This document shows positions 19,822 to 34,962 of a stretch of DNA of 45,289 nt, in pieces; the first letter of the stretch is position 1; each line of letters starts with the position of its first letter. The notes below the pieces were generated by a model. The model was not told where the DNA came from, made no database searches, and was given only the letters and a program-made list of their open reading frames with translations. Location of the stretch: positions 1-45,289 of the forward strand of contig JAGLIO010000006.1 of NCBI GenBank assembly GCA_023142915.1, given 5' to 3'. Position numbers and translations under genes: made by a program. The DNA comes from Candidatus Parcubacteria bacterium (GTDB taxonomy: Bacteria; Patescibacteriota; Patescibacteriia; Patescibacteriales; UBA12075).

Positions 19822-19898
19822 AATAAAACCCTTTTTTTGTTATTCGTAGGAACAGGGCAATGCACTGTTCCTACGAATAACAAAAAAAGGGTTTTATT
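19822..19898. repeat. 34-bp perfect-stem palindrome (REP-like) downstream of rplA
   Basis: AATAAAACCCTTTTTTTGTTATTCGTAGGAACAG / CTGTTCCTACGAATAACAAAAAAAGGGTTTTATT with 9-nt loop. Confidence 0.9.
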
Positions 19899-22299: not shown

Positions 22300-23056
22300 A
22301 TGAGTAAGATAAAAACAAAAATAAAATTTATAAAATTTATAAAATTTTCAAAACTCAAATTGATAGAGTTAATTATTACTCAAATTGAACGGCTTGATAT
22401 TCAACAAAAACAAATTGACATCCAGCAAGCATTAATTGAAAAACTTGAATCCAAATTGAAAGCGCTTAACAAAGACAGTTCAAACAGCTCCAAGCCTCCG
22501 TCATCAGATAATAATAACTCTAAAAAGAATCAATCTCTACGCAAAAAAAGCGGAAAAAAATCAGGCGGACAAAAAGGGCGTATAGGCGTTACAAGAAAAC
22601 AAAACAATAAAATGTTCTTGCGGACATTGCAACAATGGCGTATTTCCCAACAATGTTAATTCTCAAATGCAATTTGGAATAAACATTAAAACAATACAAC
22701 AGCTAAACTTGGACATCAGCTCTGCCATCCTCATCTAATCAGGGATTTGAATTATCTGATTGATAGCCATAAAAATATTTGGTGCTATAAAATGAAACAA
22801 TTGCTTTTGGCTTCGCAAAGAGCCAGAGACCAAATATGGAAAAACAATTTTGACAGAAAAATACAAATCTTCAGAGCGAGTAATCAGAAACGCTAAAATC
22901 CACAAAAAAATATCAGGGGGATTTAGAAGCGTTGCAGGAGCTGAAAGGCATGCCGTTATTCTTTCTGTAATTGAAACTTGCAAGAAACGAGATTTAAACG
23001 TGCTTGATTCACTCCGTCAGATATTTTTAGGGACTTTTTCTTTGAAGGGTACCTGA
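22300..23056 (+). pseudogene. IS66-family transposase remnant (several internal deletions/frameshifts)
   Basis: N-term 'KALNKDSSNSSKPPSSDNNNSKKNQSLRKKSGKKSGGQKG'; middle 'LIRDLNYLIDSHKNIWCYKMKQLLLASQRARDQ'; C-term 'SGGFRSVAGAERHAVILSVIETCKKRDLNVLDSLRQIF'. Confidence 0.88.
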
Positions 23057-23066
23057 GTAGTTACAA

Positions 23067-23693
23067 ATAGTTCAACAGGGAATAAAGAAAATATTGGAAG
23101 CCATATATGAACCGCATTTCCTAAACAGCTCATACGGATTTAGACCAAACAGAAATTGCCACTAAGCATTAAAAGCAGTTCACAAAATGGTAATGACAAA
23201 ACCGATAAACTGGATAATAGACGTAGATATTAAAGGATTTTTTGATAATGTTGACCACCATTGGATGATAGAATGCCTAGAACAAAGAATTAGCGACCCA
23301 AGGTTTAAAACATTGATAATTAAATTTCTAAAAGCAGGAGCGATAAGCGAGGGTAAATACAATAAAACGGAAAAAGGCACTCCGCAAGGAGGCATATTAA
23401 GCCCGCTATTGGCTAATATATATCTGCACTACGCATTAGACCTATGGTTTGAAAAGATTGAAAAGAAGAAAATAAAAGGTTATACTCAAATAATCAGATA
23501 CGCAGATGATTTTATAATCGGAGCGCAAACAAAAGAAGAAGCCAAAAACAAAGTTTTAATTGGGATGAATTTAACAGATATACAAAATTATACCCCCTGC
23601 CAAAACCGTCTCTTGCGTTTAATATGTATGACATTTGGTAAATATATTGACGGAGAGCCGTGTGCGGGAAAACCGCCTGCACGGTTCAACTAG
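23067..23693 (+). pseudogene. group II intron reverse transcriptase/maturase remnant
   Basis: 'IVQQGIKKILEAIYEPHFLNSSYGFRPNRNCH*ALKAVHKM' (stop at 23163-23165) then 'INWIIDVDIKGFFDNVDHHWM...GTPQGGILSPLLANIYLHYALDLWF...IIRYADDFIIGAQT'; C-terminus deleted. Confidence 0.92.
23655..23687 (+). ncRNA. group II intron domain V-like hairpin
   Basis: GAGCCGTGTGCGGGAAAACCGCCTGCACGGTTC, 33 nt, GAAA-type apical loop, just after the RT remnant. Confidence 0.75.
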
Positions 23694-23726
23694 GGGTTTC
23701 AATTAATTATTAATTAGAAATCTACT

Positions 23727-24101
23727 ATGACCTTATATATAGATACAAGTAAAAACAATTTAATATATTTGGCTTTAAAAAAAGACAACGAATTAATTTT
23801 GGAAAAGAAAATTACCGCGCAATATAGCCAAGCGGAAAAATTATTGCCGGGAATTGATAAGCTTTTAAAATCAGCAAATAGCGATATAACAAAAATTAAA
23901 AAAATTATAGTGGTCAATTCAGGCGAAGGTTTTACCGCCTTAAGAGTTGGCATAATTACGGCAAACGCGCTTAGTTTTGCTTTAAATATTTCGGTTTTTA
24001 GCAGTGATGACAAGCAGATAAAAAGCGATTATGATTTTAACATTATTAAGCCAAAATACAAAAAAGAGCCTAATATTACAGTTCCTAAAAATAATAATTG
24101 A
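23727..24101 (+). CDS. tsaB: short TsaB-like protein (tRNA t6A biosynthesis), 124 aa
   Basis: 'LYIDTSKNNLIYLAL', 'IIVVNSGEGFTALRVGIITANALSFALNISVF'. Confidence 0.75.
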   Translation: MTLYIDTSKNNLIYLALKKDNELILEKKITAQYSQAEKLLPGIDKLLKSANSDITKIKKIIVVNSGEGFTALRVGIITANALSFALNISVFSSDDKQIKSDYDFNIIKPKYKKEPNITVPKNNN

Positions 24102-26627: not shown

Positions 26628-26638
26628 AATAAAAAAAT

Positions 26639-27943
26639 CGTAGGAACAGGGCACTGCCCTGTTCTGTCCGTGAAATTGCCTTATTTTTTTGTAATTACAG
26701 CATCGTTTTTGCCTGTTGTTGTATAATTTTTATTATAATGTTTATAATTTTTTCGTTTTTCACGCGCCGAACAGGGCGGTGCCCTGTTCCTACGGGTTTA
26801 TACTGTTTAAAAAAATCATTTCGCCTCCACCGCCTAGGCATAGAATGCCCAGGCTACATTTTTTTTAATCCCGCTAAAAGCGGGATATTTTATTATTGAT
26901 GTTTTTATATATAGCCCGATTTATCGGGTTTATAAAATTATCAAATTAGCCCTGGCATTCATGCCTGGGCGGCGGGTGGATGAATGGAGATGATTATTTT
27001 TTATTATCCGCGTAGGAACCCGCAAAATTTTTGTTTGCCGCGCATATCGTAGGAACGCGCCGCGGCGCGTTCGGTTCAACGGTTTGCGTGTTTTTTTAAA
27101 TATATAATGCCGGTTTGTTTATTATTCGTAGGAACAGGGCATTGCCCTGTTCTATCCGTGGCATTACACTATCTTTGCCACATTATTTTTATCTGCGATT
27201 TTATGATTTTGTTATAATGTTTATAATTTTTTCGTTTTTCACGCGCCGAACAGGGCAGTGCCCTGTTCCTACGGGTTTATATTGTTTAAAAAAATCATTT
27301 CGCCTCTACCGCCTAGGCATGAATGCCTAGGCTACATTTTTTTAATCCAGCTAAAGCTTGGATATTTTTATTGACGTTTTTACACATAGCCCGATTTATC
27401 GGGCTTATAAAATTATCAGATTAGCCCTGGCATTCATGCCTGGGCGGCGGGTGGATGAGCGGGGCTGATTATTTTTTATTATTCGCGTAGAAACCGCAAA
27501 ATTTTTGTTTGCCGCGCATATCGTAGGAACGCGCCGCGGCGCGTTCGTTTCAACGGTTTGCGTGTTTTTTTAAATATATAATGCCGGTTTGTTTATTATT
27601 CGTAGGAACAGGGCACTGCCCTGTTCTGTCCGTGAAATTGCCTTATTTTTTTTGGTAATTACCGCATCGTTTTTGCCTGCGGTTGTATAATTTTTGTTAT
27701 AATATTTATAATTTTTTCGTTTTTCACGCGCCGAACAGGGCAGTGCCCTGTTCCTACGGGTTGGTGTTGTCTAAAAAAATAATTTCGCCTCCACCGCCTA
27801 GGCATAGAATGCCTAGGCTACATTTTTTAAATCCCGCTAAAAGCGGGATATTTTTTTATTGGTGTTTTTTTGTATATAGCCCGATTTATCGGGCTTATAA
27901 AATTATCAAATTAGCCCTGGCATTCATGCCTGGGCGGCGGCGG
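26639..27943. repeat. tandem array of palindrome-rich units (2 full of 488 and 474 bp, 1 partial)
   Basis: unit starts CGTAGGAACAGGGCA(C/T)TGCCCTGTTC at 26639, 27127, 27601; each full unit has about 7 palindromes in the same order. Confidence 0.92.
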
Positions 27944-28107
27944 ATAATTTTTGCGCGGTTTTTTCAAATTTGACTTTTGCCGTATTTTTTGCTAATTTAT
28001 AATCAATAATAAAACAATTCAATTAACCTAACCCTTGGATTTTTTGTTTGAGGTATGGTTAAAATCCACATACATAAAGGCGGTTTTCTGATCGGTACTA
28101 TGTGTGT

Positions 28108-28170
28108 GGTCTTTGCCCGAAAGGGCATTGGGTAATCCGAAAGGGTTGTCGCCGACGGGAGACCTTTTTT
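28108..28170 (+). ncRNA. candidate structured RNA / attenuator
   Basis: GGTCT...AGACC closing stem around GCCC-GAAA-GGGC, AATCC-GAAA-GGGTT and GTC-GCC-GAC, then T6; 24 nt before the next ATG. Confidence 0.5.
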
Positions 28171-28193
28171 GTAAAAAATATAAAATAACAACT

Positions 28194-28409
28194 ATGGCAA
28201 GATCGGAAGGAGGCCTAGGTTCAAAAGACGCACAGGCCATACATAAAACCGCGAATGCAACACAACAACTAGTTAGATTAAATAAAGAAACTGGCAAACA
28301 GACAAAATGGATGATTGCATTAACGATTATCATCGCGATTCTTACTTTAATAATGGCAATTCCAGTTGTTAGAGATGTATGGAATTACATGAGCCAAAAG
28401 TTCACTTAA
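28194..28409 (+). CDS. small single-TM hypothetical protein (71 aa)
   Basis: 'MARSEGGLGSKDAQAIHKTANATQQLVRLNKETGKQTKWMIALTIIIAILTLIMAIPVVRDVWNYM'; internal ATG of listed ORF. Confidence 0.65.
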   Translation: MARSEGGLGSKDAQAIHKTANATQQLVRLNKETGKQTKWMIALTIIIAILTLIMAIPVVRDVWNYMSQKFT

Positions 28410-28459
28410 CACCGAATATATGACTACATAAAATTAAATAATTTTATTTTTTAAATTAT

Positions 28460-28786
28460 ATGGAATCAGAAAAACCAAATGCTCCAAACGAAAATACAAT
28501 AAAAAAGTGCGAAAATATATTGGCTGAACTACTAAAAGCGCATAATTTTTTATCTATAAAAATTATTATTCGTGAAAGACCTCGCCGAACGCTAATTAAA
28601 CTCAGACATTTCCCTTTGTGGATTAATGGTGTTACACTAACAACTAAAGATAATGAAAAAATTATTATACCCTGCTGGAATTCATTCACAAAAGATATAA
28701 CTAATAAAACCAATGAATCCGAATTGTGGGAAGTGGCACATTCGATTCAAGAAGCCTTTTATCGTAAAAAGAATATTAATCAATGA
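28460..28786 (+). CDS. hypothetical protein
   Basis: 108-aa ORF in same orientation as neighbours. Confidence 0.6.
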   Translation: MESEKPNAPNENTIKKCENILAELLKAHNFLSIKIIIRERPRRTLIKLRHFPLWINGVTLTTKDNEKIIIPCWNSFTKDITNKTNESELWEVAHSIQEAFYRKKNINQ

Positions 28787-28842
28787 AAGCAAAAAGATTC
28801 ATCAAAATTGGAAATCATGGAATTATAGAAAATAATTAAAAT

Positions 28843-29322
28843 ATGAGCTCTAAAGAAAAAATATATAGTATTCTATATAGACTAAAAGAAGAAAATGAAT
28901 TAAGTCCAACTAATGATTTTTTTGTTTATAAATTTACCACATCAAATTTTATAGGAACATGCCCTACAAAAGGAGAAGAAATAAATATTTTGCTTAAATT
29001 AAAAAAAGAAAAAATAATTAAAATAATTATCCCGGATGAATTGAAAGAAGGGATTATCCGAAACAAAAAATCTTTGTTGAGATCACTAAAAGGAATTCAG
29101 ATTGAATTGCTTAGCGATTTTGATAAATATTATAGAAGATGTAAAAAAGATATTAGCCAAGGCAACAAAAGTCAAGAGCGGTGGAATTATGTTAATCCGT
29201 TTTGGTGCTTTTGGCAATTATTGATTCTAGCATGGAAACACAAAATTATTTCAGGAATTATTACTGTAGTGGTAGGCGGATTAATTGTTCATTATTTATG
29301 TTTTAAGTTGGGTATAATTTAA
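28843..29322 (+). CDS. hypothetical protein with C-terminal TM helix
   Basis: 159-aa ORF; 'IISGIITVVVGGLIVHYLCF'. Confidence 0.65.
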   Translation: MSSKEKIYSILYRLKEENELSPTNDFFVYKFTTSNFIGTCPTKGEEINILLKLKKEKIIKIIIPDELKEGIIRNKKSLLRSLKGIQIELLSDFDKYYRRCKKDISQGNKSQERWNYVNPFWCFWQLLILAWKHKIISGIITVVVGGLIVHYLCFKLGII

Positions 29323-29337
29323 AATTACGTAAGATCT

Positions 29338-31218
29338 ATGAAAAAATTATTTAAAAATTATTTTATTTTTACCTTATTATTATTTTTATTCTTTATAATA
29401 ACTATCAACATAACACAAGCGGAAGAATGTACTTCCTGGACTTATACTGATTGGCCAGAATGTGAGTACGGAAAAACGCAAAGTCGATCCATTATATCTT
29501 CATTCCCAAGTGGTTGCGAAGGAGGATTGCCATTTTTATATAAAGGGTGCGATTATGGTAGCACATTTTGTCAGGCTGAAGATTGGTCTTGCTCGGAATG
29601 GTCAATCTGTTCTTCCATCGGTAGCCAATCAAGAACATGTGATAGAAACAATAACGATACAGAATGTCATAGTGATATACATAAACCAAAAATTACCCAA
29701 TCTTGTTCTTATATCCCCTCTTGTACGCTAAATGATTGGTCCTGCAGTTCTTGGGGCGCGTGTTCTTCAAATAGCACAGAATCTCGAACTTGTAGCAAAG
29801 TTTCAAACTGCGAAAGCGGGACACCATCCCCAGCAACCACCCAATCCTGCACCTACACCCCATCTTGCACGCAAGACACATGGCAATGCGGAAACTGGAG
29901 TACTTGCTCCCCGCAAGGAATCCAGACAAGAAGCTGTAATAAAACTTATGACTGCTCATCCGCGGAAACCGCCTCGCCTGCGACATCCCAATACTGCCAA
30001 GCACCAAACCAGCCCCAACCTCAAACCCCGTCAGATGATTTAGAAATTATTAATCAATCCTCAATTATAAAAGCAACAGTTAAACTTTTATGCCCTGTTA
30101 GCCAAACAATGGCAAGCCAAGGTTCAGGAACAATTATTGATTCAGACGGAACAATATTAACAAACAAGCATGTTGTGGACGGCACGGCAGGATGCCTTGT
30201 TGGATTTATAGACAATTATAATGACGAGCCGTATTTTGCCGACAGGCACATAGCTGATATTTATAAAGTATCAAACGACGCTGATGTCGCTATCTTGAAA
30301 TTAAGAAATCCTTATAGCAAAAATCTTACTGCGATAAACATTGCGGGAAGCAATAGTAATAATCTTAGCCTAGGAGACCAAATTACAACTTACGGCTATC
30401 CGGGAAAATTCGGCACAAAAATAACATATACCAGCGGAGATTTTAGCGGAGTTGACGGCAATTATTTAAAGACAACCGCTATTATTGAATACGGAAATTC
30501 AGGTGGCGGAGCGTATCTTAAAAACGGAACATTCATCGGAATACCGTCTGCTGTGATGAAAGGCGATTTGAATTCTATGGGCTATATATTATCCGTAAAT
30601 AAAATTAATAGCTGGCTTAACGGTTCGCCAATGGCGTATAATAATGATGGCGATAATAATTACGCAAGAGTATCAATTTTAGAGGATATTGATTTAAACA
30701 CGCTTGATTCTTTGGATTTATTTATTTTTAGTGAAGATGAAAATAATAACGATAACGCTGATAATTCCAACAATCAAAACAATTCAAACAGCCAAAATCT
30801 AATTCAAGAAGAAAAAGAAGCGATAACAAAAATAGACAGTGCTTTATCAAAAAGAACAAGCGGCAACATTTTATTGCAAGTGGAAAAGAACGGCGAAGGG
30901 TGGTATGTTTATCCTGACAATGAAAAAAAATATTATTTAGGGCGACCCGCGGATGCTTTTAATATCATGAAAAATTTAGGTTTAGGAATTAAGCACGGCG
31001 AACTTAACGGCTATCTTAATTCAAAATTCCCAATCGGATTATCAGGAAAAATAATGCTGGATGTTGAGCAAAACGGCGAAGCGTATTATGTTAATCCAAA
31101 TGATTTAAAAGGCTATTATCTCAACAGGCCGGATGATGCGTTTAAAATTATGCGGGAACTCGGGCTTGGAATTACGAACAGCGATATAAGGAAAATTGAT
31201 GTTGGGGAAATTGAATAA
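29338..31218 (+). CDS. secreted trypsin-like serine protease with thrombospondin type 1-like repeats
   Basis: signal peptide; repeats 'DWSCSSWGACSSNSTESRTC'; triad contexts 'LTNKHVVDG', 'DADVAILKL', 'GNSGGGAYL'; duplicated C-terminal module 'GWYVYPDNEKKYYLGRPADAFNIMKNLGLGI'. Confidence 0.9.
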   Translation: MKKLFKNYFIFTLLLFLFFIITINITQAEECTSWTYTDWPECEYGKTQSRSIISSFPSGCEGGLPFLYKGCDYGSTFCQAEDWSCSEWSICSSIGSQSRTCDRNNNDTECHSDIHKPKITQSCSYIPSCTLNDWSCSSWGACSSNSTESRTCSKVSNCESGTPSPATTQSCTYTPSCTQDTWQCGNWSTCSPQGIQTRSCNKTYDCSSAETASPATSQYCQAPNQPQPQTPSDDLEIINQSSIIKATVKLLCPVSQTMASQGSGTIIDSDGTILTNKHVVDGTAGCLVGFIDNYNDEPYFADRHIADIYKVSNDADVAILKLRNPYSKNLTAINIAGSNSNNLSLGDQITTYGYPGKFGTKITYTSGDFSGVDGNYLKTTAIIEYGNSGGGAYLKNGTFIGIPSAVMKGDLNSMGYILSVNKINSWLNGSPMAYNNDGDNNYARVSILEDIDLNTLDSLDLFIFSEDENNNDNADNSNNQNNSNSQNLIQEEKEAITKIDSALSKRTSGNILLQVEKNGEGWYVYPDNEKKYYLGRPADAFNIMKNLGLGIKHGELNGYLNSKFPIGLSGKIMLDVEQNGEAYYVNPNDLKGYYLNRPDDAFKIMRELGLGITNSDIRKIDVGEIE

Positions 31219-31304
31219 AATTTTGAATAAATTTTTTTGACAGATTTTTATCCTCATGATAAATTAAAATAGAAATTTATTAAAAATATGTTAGATAAAA
31301 AAAT

Positions 31305-31958
31305 ATGATGAATAAAAAAATAATGATTTTAATTTTATGTTTAGCCGTGATGGTGGTTGTTTCTGGGTGTTGGAGAAAAGAAAAAAAACAGCCGATTATT
31401 GTTAATAATGAACAAAAGATTGAAGAAATTGAACAAGAAAAGGCAGAAAAGATAGGAACTTCAACTGAGAAATCATCACCTACCGAAGCTATAAATAATA
31501 ATATTAACAATTGGCAAATCTTTAAAGAGCAAAATGTTAATTTTACATTTGAATATCCTAAAAAATGGACATATTCAATAAAAAAATATGAATTTGGAAC
31601 TAAACGCATAATTTTTAGTAGTGAAATTAGGGACAATGAAATAATTGTTGAAATGCCGATACCTGCTGTTGGTTTGGAGACTTGGGAGCCAATTGAAAAA
31701 AAGATATATCAAACTAATGATGCAAATACGGATTTATTATTAACCTATATGGAATCAAGATATGAGGACAAAAAATTATTATTTGATATATTAAAATGGC
31801 AAGAAGGAATAAAAGGAGATGAATTACAAAAGGGATTTAAAGAATGGGATGATGAATCGGTATGGCTGTATATTGTTAGATATGATGAAAAATATGATAA
31901 ATATTACAGAAGTATTATTGAAAAAATAGCAAACTCAATAAAATTTATATTGCAATAA
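31305..31958 (+). CDS. putative lipoprotein
   Basis: lipobox-like signal 'ILILCLAVMVVVSGCWRKEK'. Confidence 0.75.
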   Translation: MMNKKIMILILCLAVMVVVSGCWRKEKKQPIIVNNEQKIEEIEQEKAEKIGTSTEKSSPTEAINNNINNWQIFKEQNVNFTFEYPKKWTYSIKKYEFGTKRIIFSSEIRDNEIIVEMPIPAVGLETWEPIEKKIYQTNDANTDLLLTYMESRYEDKKLLFDILKWQEGIKGDELQKGFKEWDDESVWLYIVRYDEKYDKYYRSIIEKIANSIKFILQ

Positions 31959-32070
31959 ATTTAAAACAAATTAAAACTATTCTTACTGGAAATATAATAA
32001 AAAATTGTATTTCTAAAAGAGCAATTTTAGTTGTTCTAAAATACAAAAATAAATTAAAGGAGGGCAAAAA

Positions 32071-32088
32071 ATGTTCATTGAAAATTAA
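32071..32088 (+). other. possible micro-uORF (MFIEN*) with consensus SD
   Basis: AAAGGAGGG at 32056-32064, ATG TTC ATT GAA AAT TAA upstream of the M23 gene. Confidence 0.3.
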
Positions 32089-32153
32089 ATATAAAAGTGG
32101 AAAATCTGAAAAAAAATTGATAATTACCTTAAACAGAAAAAGGAGATTAAGTC

Positions 32154-34880
32154 ATGAAAAAGAAAATTATTATTTTTACAGTTCTGTGGCTGATTGTATG
32201 TTTTAGTAATGCAAATGCTGTTCAACAGATGTTGCCATTTCCTGGCGGTGAAACGTGGATATGTACACAAGGATGGGATGGTACCACCTCTCATTTTGGA
32301 GAATGGAAATATTCTTGGGATTTTGCTACTCCTTCGGGAAATCCTATTTCTGCTTCTGCTGAAGGCACTATTGTATATGCAGGCTATAATTCCATATTAG
32401 GTAATACGGTTATTATTGATTATGGTAACAGTGAGTATGGGAAATATTGTCATTTATTAAATACGGATAATCATCCGCTAGAAGTTAGTGTTGGTGACAT
32501 CGTTTCACAAGGTCAAATTATTGGTTATTGTGGAAATACTGGCTCAAGTAGTGAGGGTGCTCATATTCATTATAATGTACAAGACAGCAGTAGTCTCTGG
32601 GGTCAATCCATTATATCGTCATTTATCGATGTTGCGGAGAATAACGGTGTTCCGCTGGAATGGAAAAGTTACACTTCTTTTAACTACTACAATCCAATGA
32701 CCAATTTCAAAATCGGACGTTATATTGATGGATATGTGTTAGAAAATATGAGCGATTACCGCCCATATTCTCGGCCATTTGTCACAACATATTGCTATAA
32801 CGGCGATTCAGACATGCTTGGATACCCAATAAGCAATGTTTATTTGTTGGAAAATTGCGTTGGTTGTATCAACTCTTGGGCAGAGCATGTTTATGTTCAG
32901 GATTTTCAAGGCGGTGCCTGCGGATCGGCAACGTTGGTAATGAATATGCTTACCCACAATATTAGATTTGATTATTCCGGAGTTGCTTATCCGATTCATG
33001 GTCAAATGAGAAATTATTGGTATTGGAATTTTTCATCACTTGGCGCGCCGGTTTCCAATGAGCATAGCTACGATGGGTTTGGTTATTCCTCGGATCCTGG
33101 TTGTGATTATGTTGTTCAATGGTTTGAACCGAGTGAAAATAATTTTGTAGCAGTTGTGTACGATGTTAATAATGGCACTTTTCAGCAATATAACGAATCA
33201 AGTTCTGGAGCTCCACCATGTACCGTATTGGATCAAGCTATTTGGGACAACCTCGGCTGTCCGAATGGCGACTGCGGTGTTGGCGGCGGAGAAGATCCAC
33301 TGCCCCCAAGCGACGACTACGCTTTTAACCGCTCCACAACCTGCAAAGATGCCCAGTCATATAGTCCGTATAATCCGATAGATGAAACGACATTATTCTA
33401 TAATACGGATAATTATGTTTGCTCATGGATTCAATTGGATAATATTTACAAATCATTAAATATTAATTGGAAATGGTATAATCCTGATAACGTTCTTGTT
33501 GACGAATCCGGCTATACGACTGATGATCCGGCAAGCCATGGTTATGAATATTGGGATTGGTATAGAAGCTGGAGTTGGCTGAACATTGCTAACGCAAATA
33601 ATTACGGTCAATGGCGCGTTGATATTTATGTTGACGGGCAAAAAATAACCACTGATTATTTTACCTTGGAATGCGACACCTTGCCTGATTTTCTCTATAT
33701 CGCCTCGTATATTTGCGACTCTTGGCAGCACGGCTTAAATGATGAATATTGGAACTTGCAGCCGGTTAATATCAGAAGTGAGTTTACTTCCGGCGATACC
33801 GCTCAATTTTTAGTTAAATTGGAAGATGTTTATACTAATCATCGTTTCCGCATGCGCCTTTACCGCAACGACTCGCTTTTGCGCGAACAGACTGATGCTT
33901 GGTTGTATCCGGATACGAATCAAGGCTGGGGATATTCCAGTTTTGCTCCTTATCAAGAAAATTTAATGCCCGGCAGCTATGAAGCTGTTTTTTATTTGGA
34001 TACAGGCAGTGATTTTTTTGTTTTGGATTCAAAACAATTCAGCGTAGGCGGTCCGGATTATACTTATGCCGGAGCAACAGTATGCGAAGGATGGGAGCAC
34101 GGAGTCGGAGATGACTATTGGAACTTACAGCCGGTTAATCCAAGAACGGAATTTTACGCTGGTGAAACCGTTCAACTGCTTGCTCAGCTAAAAGATGTCT
34201 TTATTGACCATGAGTGGAAAATGGAACTTTGGAAATACGGTGTTTTTCAATGGCATTGGCCATCAGGCTGGATTGACGTAGATGATGTTAACGGTTGGGG
34301 ATATTCCAATTTTCCGCCTTATGTTGAAAATGCTTCAGCCGGAGATTATGAATTTAAGCTTTATCTGGATACCGGAAACGGATTTTTCCTTATAGATACA
34401 AAGCCGTTTACCGTCGCGGCAAACAATGAAAACATCCCGTATTTTGAGGATTTTTCATATGATAATCACGGTTTTATTTTAGAAGACCATCTTTCCACCG
34501 CTTCTCTTTATATTAGTGAAAACGAAGGAATAAGCGGAAGCCGCTGTTTGGTGCTAAACAACACGCAAACTGTTTCATCATGGCAAGTCCAAGCCAAAAA
34601 GATTGGATTTAATATTTCTAATAATACCCATTACAACGGACAAATTTATTTAAAGTCCGATAACCCCGGAATAATATATATCGCTATTCAAAGAGAAATA
34701 GAACCATGGGATAATATGGGCTTATGGAAAGTCGTCAGTGTAACAACAAATTGGCAAGCGATTGATATAGGTTTTACCGCAGCAAGCGAACTTGGAATTA
34801 ATCCTGACAATGTCAGGTTTGCTATTCAAGCCGGAGAATTAACCGGAAAACTTTATGTTGACGATATAAGCTTGAATTGA
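32154..34880 (+). CDS. secreted M23 (LytM-like) metallopeptidase with C-terminal duplicated domains
   Basis: signal peptide; 'SHFGEWKYSWDFATPSGNPISASAEGTIVYAG', 'GNTGSSSEGAHIHYNV'; two homologous 'DYWNLQPVNPRTEF...GWGYSNFPPY' domains. Confidence 0.88.
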   Translation: MKKKIIIFTVLWLIVCFSNANAVQQMLPFPGGETWICTQGWDGTTSHFGEWKYSWDFATPSGNPISASAEGTIVYAGYNSILGNTVIIDYGNSEYGKYCHLLNTDNHPLEVSVGDIVSQGQIIGYCGNTGSSSEGAHIHYNVQDSSSLWGQSIISSFIDVAENNGVPLEWKSYTSFNYYNPMTNFKIGRYIDGYVLENMSDYRPYSRPFVTTYCYNGDSDMLGYPISNVYLLENCVGCINSWAEHVYVQDFQGGACGSATLVMNMLTHNIRFDYSGVAYPIHGQMRNYWYWNFSSLGAPVSNEHSYDGFGYSSDPGCDYVVQWFEPSENNFVAVVYDVNNGTFQQYNESSSGAPPCTVLDQAIWDNLGCPNGDCGVGGGEDPLPPSDDYAFNRSTTCKDAQSYSPYNPIDETTLFYNTDNYVCSWIQLDNIYKSLNINWKWYNPDNVLVDESGYTTDDPASHGYEYWDWYRSWSWLNIANANNYGQWRVDIYVDGQKITTDYFTLECDTLPDFLYIASYICDSWQHGLNDEYWNLQPVNIRSEFTSGDTAQFLVKLEDVYTNHRFRMRLYRNDSLLREQTDAWLYPDTNQGWGYSSFAPYQENLMPGSYEAVFYLDTGSDFFVLDSKQFSVGGPDYTYAGATVCEGWEHGVGDDYWNLQPVNPRTEFYAGETVQLLAQLKDVFIDHEWKMELWKYGVFQWHWPSGWIDVDDVNGWGYSNFPPYVENASAGDYEFKLYLDTGNGFFLIDTKPFTVAANNENIPYFEDFSYDNHGFILEDHLSTASLYISENEGISGSRCLVLNNTQTVSSWQVQAKKIGFNISNNTHYNGQIYLKSDNPGIIYIAIQREIEPWDNMGLWKVVSVTTNWQAIDIGFTAASELGINPDNVRFAIQAGELTGKLYVDDISLN

Positions 34881-34921
34881 TTATCGTTTATTATTAATTT
34901 TAATTTTACAAAAATTCTTAC

Positions 34922-34962
34922 TCCGGCAAATTTGATTTTTTCAGATTTGCCGGATTTTTTTT
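34922..34962. terminator. intrinsic terminator between convergent genes
   Basis: TCCGGCAAAT...ATTTGCCGGA followed by T8. Confidence 0.75.

Follow-up and report, generated by a model that had tools for sequence, protein, structure and literature searches.

REPs are regarded as miniature elements mobilised by RAYTs, and clusters of REPs as BIMEs (PMC3116915, PMC3733652, PMC2817692). For subclass 2.4 of TnpA-REP, reported to be abundant in the Cyanobacteria and Bacteroidetes, the insertion of REPs within the tnpA-REP genes has already been published, and in-gene REPs together with double-foot REPs are hallmarks of this subclass (PMC6006769).

Here, we analysed an array of palindromes on a 45-kb contig (45,289 nucleotides, hereafter the window), which is part of a 1.32-Mb MAG of a Candidatus Parcubacteria bacterium that comprises 99 contigs and is 93% complete. 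We consider it very probable that three non-autonomous palindromic elements, termed A, B and C, each dispersed by a Y1/HUH transposase acting on ssDNA, make up the array as a BIME-like mosaic, and that this mosaic was tandemly duplicated. In common with the REPIN/RAYT systems (PMC6006769, PMC3116915, PMC3733652), it displays the GTAG foot tag, inverted and double-foot REPs, dispersed intergenic copies and a cognate Y1 transposase with the motif order NH[IV]H..WQ..Y; as in subclass 2.4, REPs are placed in frame between HuH and Y of the transposase gene. In contrast to the known systems, however, the host belongs to a Parcubacteria lineage, the copy number is in the tens rather than the hundreds, and the array combines an IS200-type element with REPs of two families. 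Like the enterobacterial BIMEs (PMC2817692), it is a mosaic cluster in which inverted REPs alternate, partly in tandem, but its unit is longer and includes the IS200-type miniature element; the likeness is one of arrangement, and no sequence relation is expected. Element B resembles the PATE/MITE elements derived from IS200/IS605 (PMC3119063) in being non-coding, in its preferred flank and in sharing hairpin ends with IS200-type tnpA loci, but differs by two extra inner hairpins. Thus, the array can be placed in an established class of selfish repeats of bacteria, and what makes it unusual is that REPs of two families are combined with an IS200-type miniature element. A limited literature search found no papers on such repeats in Patescibacteria, which is weak evidence of absence.

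Results

The array consists of three tandem units

A repeat search of the window placed the unit starts at 26638, 27126 and 27600, with a spacing of 488 and 474 bp, and recovered the inverted pairs within the units. This confirms the three tandem units of approximately 480 bp, the third being partial, that had been noted in a preliminary description of this DNA. A full unit has the order A-B-C, and the whole array reads A-B-C-A-B-C-A-B (Table 1). Reading the sequence and aligning the units likewise bore out the fixed order of about seven palindromes per full unit (seven in unit 1, seven in unit 2 and six in unit 3), with two corrections for unit 1, in which the third palindrome is imperfect (GCCTAGGCAT/ATGCCCAGGC) and the AGCCCGATTTATCGGGCT palindrome reads AGCCCGATTTATCGGGTT. 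Unit 3 stops after the fourth hairpin of B at approximately position 27937. The compensatory change proposed for the helix CCAGCT/AGCTTGG of unit 2 holds in part: there is one A-T double change, but also one G-T and one mismatch, and the helix therefore pairs only partly. In agreement with the earlier statement that no convincing ORF spans the array, the sole ORF of at least 80 aa is a 96-aa frame with a TTG start that runs through the palindromes. This frame is spurious and no credible gene, and the array is non-coding.

Table 1. Features of the array, its surroundings and the RAYT-like genes. Coordinates refer to the window, except for the loci L113, L146 and L147, which are given with genome and contig (G000, own genome; G001 and G002, congeners).
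Feature	Coordinates	Strand	Remarks
Group II intron RNA domain (RF00029)	23653-23731
Element A, unit 1	26639..26794	+	REPIN; inverted GTAGGAAC-hairpins 26640-26664 (+) and 26769-26793 (-), GTAG outward
Element B, unit 1	26830..26972	+	hairpin ends CCGCCTAGGCAT..GGCTAC / TTAGCCCTGGCATTCATGCCTGGGCGG plus two inner hairpins
Element C, unit 1	27012..27126	+	left half of second REPIN family; REP hairpin 27049-27072, GTAGGAACGCGCCGCGGCGCGTTC
Element A, unit 2	27127..27273	+	REPs 27128-27152 (+) and 27248-27272 (-)
Element B, unit 2	27309..27447	+	genome copies, aligned copies
Element C, unit 2	27487..27600	+	REP hairpin 27523-27546
Element A, unit 3	27601..27758	+	REPs 27602-27626 (+) and 27733-27757 (-)
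Element B, unit 3	27794..27937	+	last array element, no C after it
Segment D	27941..28024	+	repeated, promoter-like (TTGACT..TATAAT by eye)
LOOT RNA (RF03000)	28025..28150	+	directly after the array, outside the repeat unit; 64.8 bits, cut-off 46.4
RAYT-like gene with in-frame C REPIN	L147:1415-2083 (G000:C39)		translation reads NHVHGIIIIENNRRNAPRRV...NAPRRVPTG
RAYT-like gene with in-frame A REPIN, 226 aa	L146:1465-2142 (G002:C9)
RAYT-like gene with in-frame A REPIN	L113:508-1020 (G001:C14)

Element A is a REPIN, element C is half a REPIN, and element B is a miniature element

Element A is a REPIN of 156 bp (unit 1), in which an inverted pair of GTAGGAACAGGGCANTGCCCTGTTC hairpins, separated by a short spacer, carries its GTAG tags outward. 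In A as well as in C, every REP carries a GTAG/GTGG tetranucleotide at its 5′ foot. As ssDNA, element A folds as one hairpin with a z-score of -9.4 relative to dinucleotide shuffles, none of 200 folding as well. The pattern GTAGGAACN{4,24}GTTC yielded 42 matches in the genome, while the reversed-pattern control yielded 0. Elsewhere in the window, at 19846-19874, there is an A-type double-foot REP (GTAGGAACAGGGCAATGCACTGTTCCTAC) that stands alone.

The hairpin of element C consists of GTAGGAACGCGCCGCGGCGCGTTC plus a tail. On contigs C39 and C71 of the own genome it occurs as full inverted pairs approximately 140 bp apart, which indicates that the copy of C in the array is half a REPIN abutting the next A.

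Element B comprises approximately 143 bp of non-coding DNA that starts with CCGCCTAGGCAT and ends with ATGCCTGGGCGG; both ends lie in hairpins, and two further hairpins are located between them. The unit-3 copy folds as ssDNA at a z-score of -7.7 (again 0 of 200 dinucleotide shuffles fold as well), and together with the folding of A and the 42 hairpin matches against 0 in the control this places the array far beyond chance. When 26 copies of B were aligned, the ends were sharp and the outer flanks unrelated, except for shared segments such as D. The left flank is pyrimidine-rich and favours TT[TC]A(C), with a T at position -4 in 21 of the 26 copies; the sites with and without B have diverged too far to prove the lack of a target duplication. 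Moreover, double changes were counted in 8, 15 and 13 cells of the hairpins H2, H3 and H4, respectively, where the paired cells exceed every shuffle; this is our own count on a MAFFT alignment in which related copies are not independent, and hairpin H1 hardly varies and is thus uninformative.

The elements are dispersed and recur in composite orders

Searching the own genome with the whole unit yielded 83 matches. A and C are present in many dispersed copies, and B alone accounts for approximately 20 substantial ones. The joined flanks of nine B copies were then searched in the congeners, that is, in MAGs named Candidatus Parcubacteria. At the site of contig C12, B is absent from G001 and an A-type REP is found in its place; at the sites of C62 and C15, B is absent from G002. 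These differences are presence/absence polymorphisms at orthologous intergenic sites.

The preliminary description had regarded many single palindromes with no conserved order outside this locus as evidence against its view. Single palindromes are indeed common, but order is not lost elsewhere, as the composites A-B and B-C-A recur outside the array. On contig C70, an A-B-D block shares 90.6% identity with unit 3 and its flanks, and G001 contains B-C-A on contigs C16 and C156, followed at C16 by B-D-LOOT. Other mixtures of the elements are found at C45, G001:C16 and G002:C9. Given the recurrence of these orders, the mosaic block either predates the tandem array or was copied more than once, and with regard to the congener the block could move or be copied as a unit.

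RAYT-like genes contain REPINs, and an IS200-type tnpA gene is flanked by B-type ends

The only Pfam Y1_Tnp match in the genome (C74:11148-11489) was considered as a RAYT and rejected, because NCBIfam assigns it to the IS200-type TnpA: it scores 76.5 bits with NF033573 (cut-off 55) and 24.6 with the RAYT model. Its sequence is related to those of transposases with solved structures, among them that of ISHp608. Hairpin ends of the B type are located on both sides of this tnpA gene, with more B copies nearby, and B-type hairpins likewise accompany tnpA at G001:C3 and G002:C7 in congeners and at G044:C12 in another family. Thus, B has its ends in common with elements that encode an IS200-type TnpA. 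The tnpA-linked copies constitute a divergent subfamily only 77-81% identical to the B of the array, and for this reason the pairing of tnpA and B is put forward as presumable: B would have been derived, as a miniature form, from an IS200-type element of which the tnpA is preserved on C74.

The RAYT model yielded split matches on contigs C39 and C3 of the own genome and in congeners, which is explained by ORFs that read through REPINs inside the gene. The ORF on C39 encodes 223 aa and scores 65.8 bits with NF047646 compared to 13.7 with the IS200 model. As the scores of this protein and of a second one (65.8 and 67.5 bits, each in two stretches) do not reach the curated cut-off of 80 bits, we term these proteins RAYT-like; the in-gene insert probably lowers the scores by splitting the match. 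In 18 of the 18 RAYT ORFs across the taxonomic order that pass the motif filter, a hairpin lies in the loop between HuH and Y, mostly with a GTAG foot. Such in-frame insertion of a REP is as found in subclass 2.4, and REPs inside RAYT genes can therefore not be regarded as a new phenomenon (PMC6006769). Compared by motif with this subclass (NH[IFV]H, WQ, YIxNNP), the HuH and WQ motifs of the C39 protein (NHVH, WQ, YMTNNP) and of its G002 counterpart (NHIH, WQ, YIMDNP) agree, while the Y motif is one residue off in each.

The cognate genes are tied to the same REP types as the array, namely C on C39 and A on G002:C9, and half of an A resides in a broken RAYT gene on C3. A and C are very probably mobile copies of REPINs with counterparts inside RAYT-like genes. 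Since the A-type RAYT of the own genome is broken, the copies of A may have been orphaned, unless an intact RAYT is missing from the 93%-complete MAG.

The array is located at the edge of an 8.3-kb insertion

Segment D, which separates the array from the LOOT RNA, also follows B at C70, C14, C78 and G001:C16. B-D-LOOT, whole or partial, was observed at C14, C78, G001:C16 and G002:C9, and the genes downstream of these copies resemble the trypsin-like protein at 29338-31218 in their C-terminal region. In G002 and G006, the PSP1 gene adjoins a relative of the gene at 34961, indicating that the window holds approximately 8.3 kb extra at this place, with the array at the left edge. This segment (26628-34960) comprises the array, LOOT, small ORFs, the trypsin-like protein and a secreted-looking protein of 908 aa.

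We also considered the array as a conserved orthologous feature behind the PSP1 gene and rejected this idea: G002 lacks the array, and G001 has a truncated LOOT and one B at the end of a contig. In the latter genome (L208:3790-4012), the truncated LOOT that directly follows the PSP1-family gene is interrupted by B, and a short way beyond that B the contig ends, probably at the repeat. At G001:C16, the genes downstream of the composite are related to those 3′ of the array, but the PSP1 gene is not adjacent.

Discussion

Three other readings of the array have to be weighed. Given that the genome is a MAG of 99 contigs, and that the congener contigs G001:C144 and C156 break within these repeats, a repeat collapsed or falsely expanded during assembly or binning has to be considered. 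Yet the units with their flanks are only 82.8-86.7% identical in pairwise comparison, i.e., 13-17% of the aligned positions differ, and this divergence argues against an assembly duplicate. As, moreover, both flanks are unique on the 45-kb contig and the junction types of the array are found again in other genomes, an artefact is extremely improbable. The strong hairpins and the covariation in the helices of B would also befit a dedicated long non-coding RNA, highly structured and specified by the tandem units, as had been envisaged at the outset. However, covariation is to be expected just as much for hairpins that HUH transposases read as ssDNA; a search of Rfam gave no match in the array, single hairpins occur all over the genome as well as beside or inside transposase genes, and neither number nor order of the units is kept in congeners. 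We therefore find no support for such an RNA and judge it very improbable.

The neighbourhood brings a further reading into play, namely a binding or recombination platform maintained by the host and tied to the D-LOOT cassette, for instance for the recruitment of proteins or the shuffling of cassettes. In the window as well as at C14, C78 (where LOOT is partial) and G001:C16, D and LOOT are closely preceded by B, and the array borders the insertion between the PSP1 gene and the 34961 gene. On the other hand, most copies of A, B and C elsewhere are without D or LOOT, the repeated B-D-LOOT is explicable by copying of a segment that happened to hold B, and the copy of B inside the truncated LOOT of G001 looks disruptive. 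Taken together, this renders a platform quite unlikely. It is likewise unlikely, if conceivable, that A-B-D and B-C-A travel or are copied as whole blocks and constitute with D-LOOT a shuffling cassette, which would spread a regulatory RNA and secreted-protein genes through Parcubacteria genomes. In contrast, the GTAG-tagged hairpins, the inverted REP pairs, the many dispersed copies and the matching Y1/HUH transposases speak for the tandemly duplicated nest of REP palindromes that the preliminary description had listed among its options.

The BIME-like mosaic could have arisen as follows. RAYT and TnpA would recognise the hairpins in ssDNA, cleave at the tag and insert copies into intergenic DNA, where the copies are observed; presumably, the RAYT-like and TnpA proteins described above carried out this transposition. 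Insertions side by side may then have given rise to an A-B-C block, with the PSP1-family gene on one side and the D-LOOT cassette on the other. As the alignment of the units suggests, recombination between near-identical copies would finally have duplicated the block of approximately 480 bp, and it was probably such recombination between copies that made the array. Side effects of the palindromes as a terminator or as an mRNA-end hairpin are possible.

These data reveal that small Parcubacteria genomes carry active-looking populations of REPINs and of an IS200-type miniature element along with plausible mobilising transposases. The Parcubacteria RAYT genes with their own in-frame REPIN are examples worth listing of a phenomenon known for subclass 2.4. 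In addition, mosaics of this kind are a possible cause of the contig breaks in these MAGs, and there is a risk of taking them for structured RNAs. Apart from the array, the window contains a remnant-looking stretch at 22300-23731 that comprises a fragment of DUF6444, 168 aa of a reverse transcriptase and a group II intron RNA domain.
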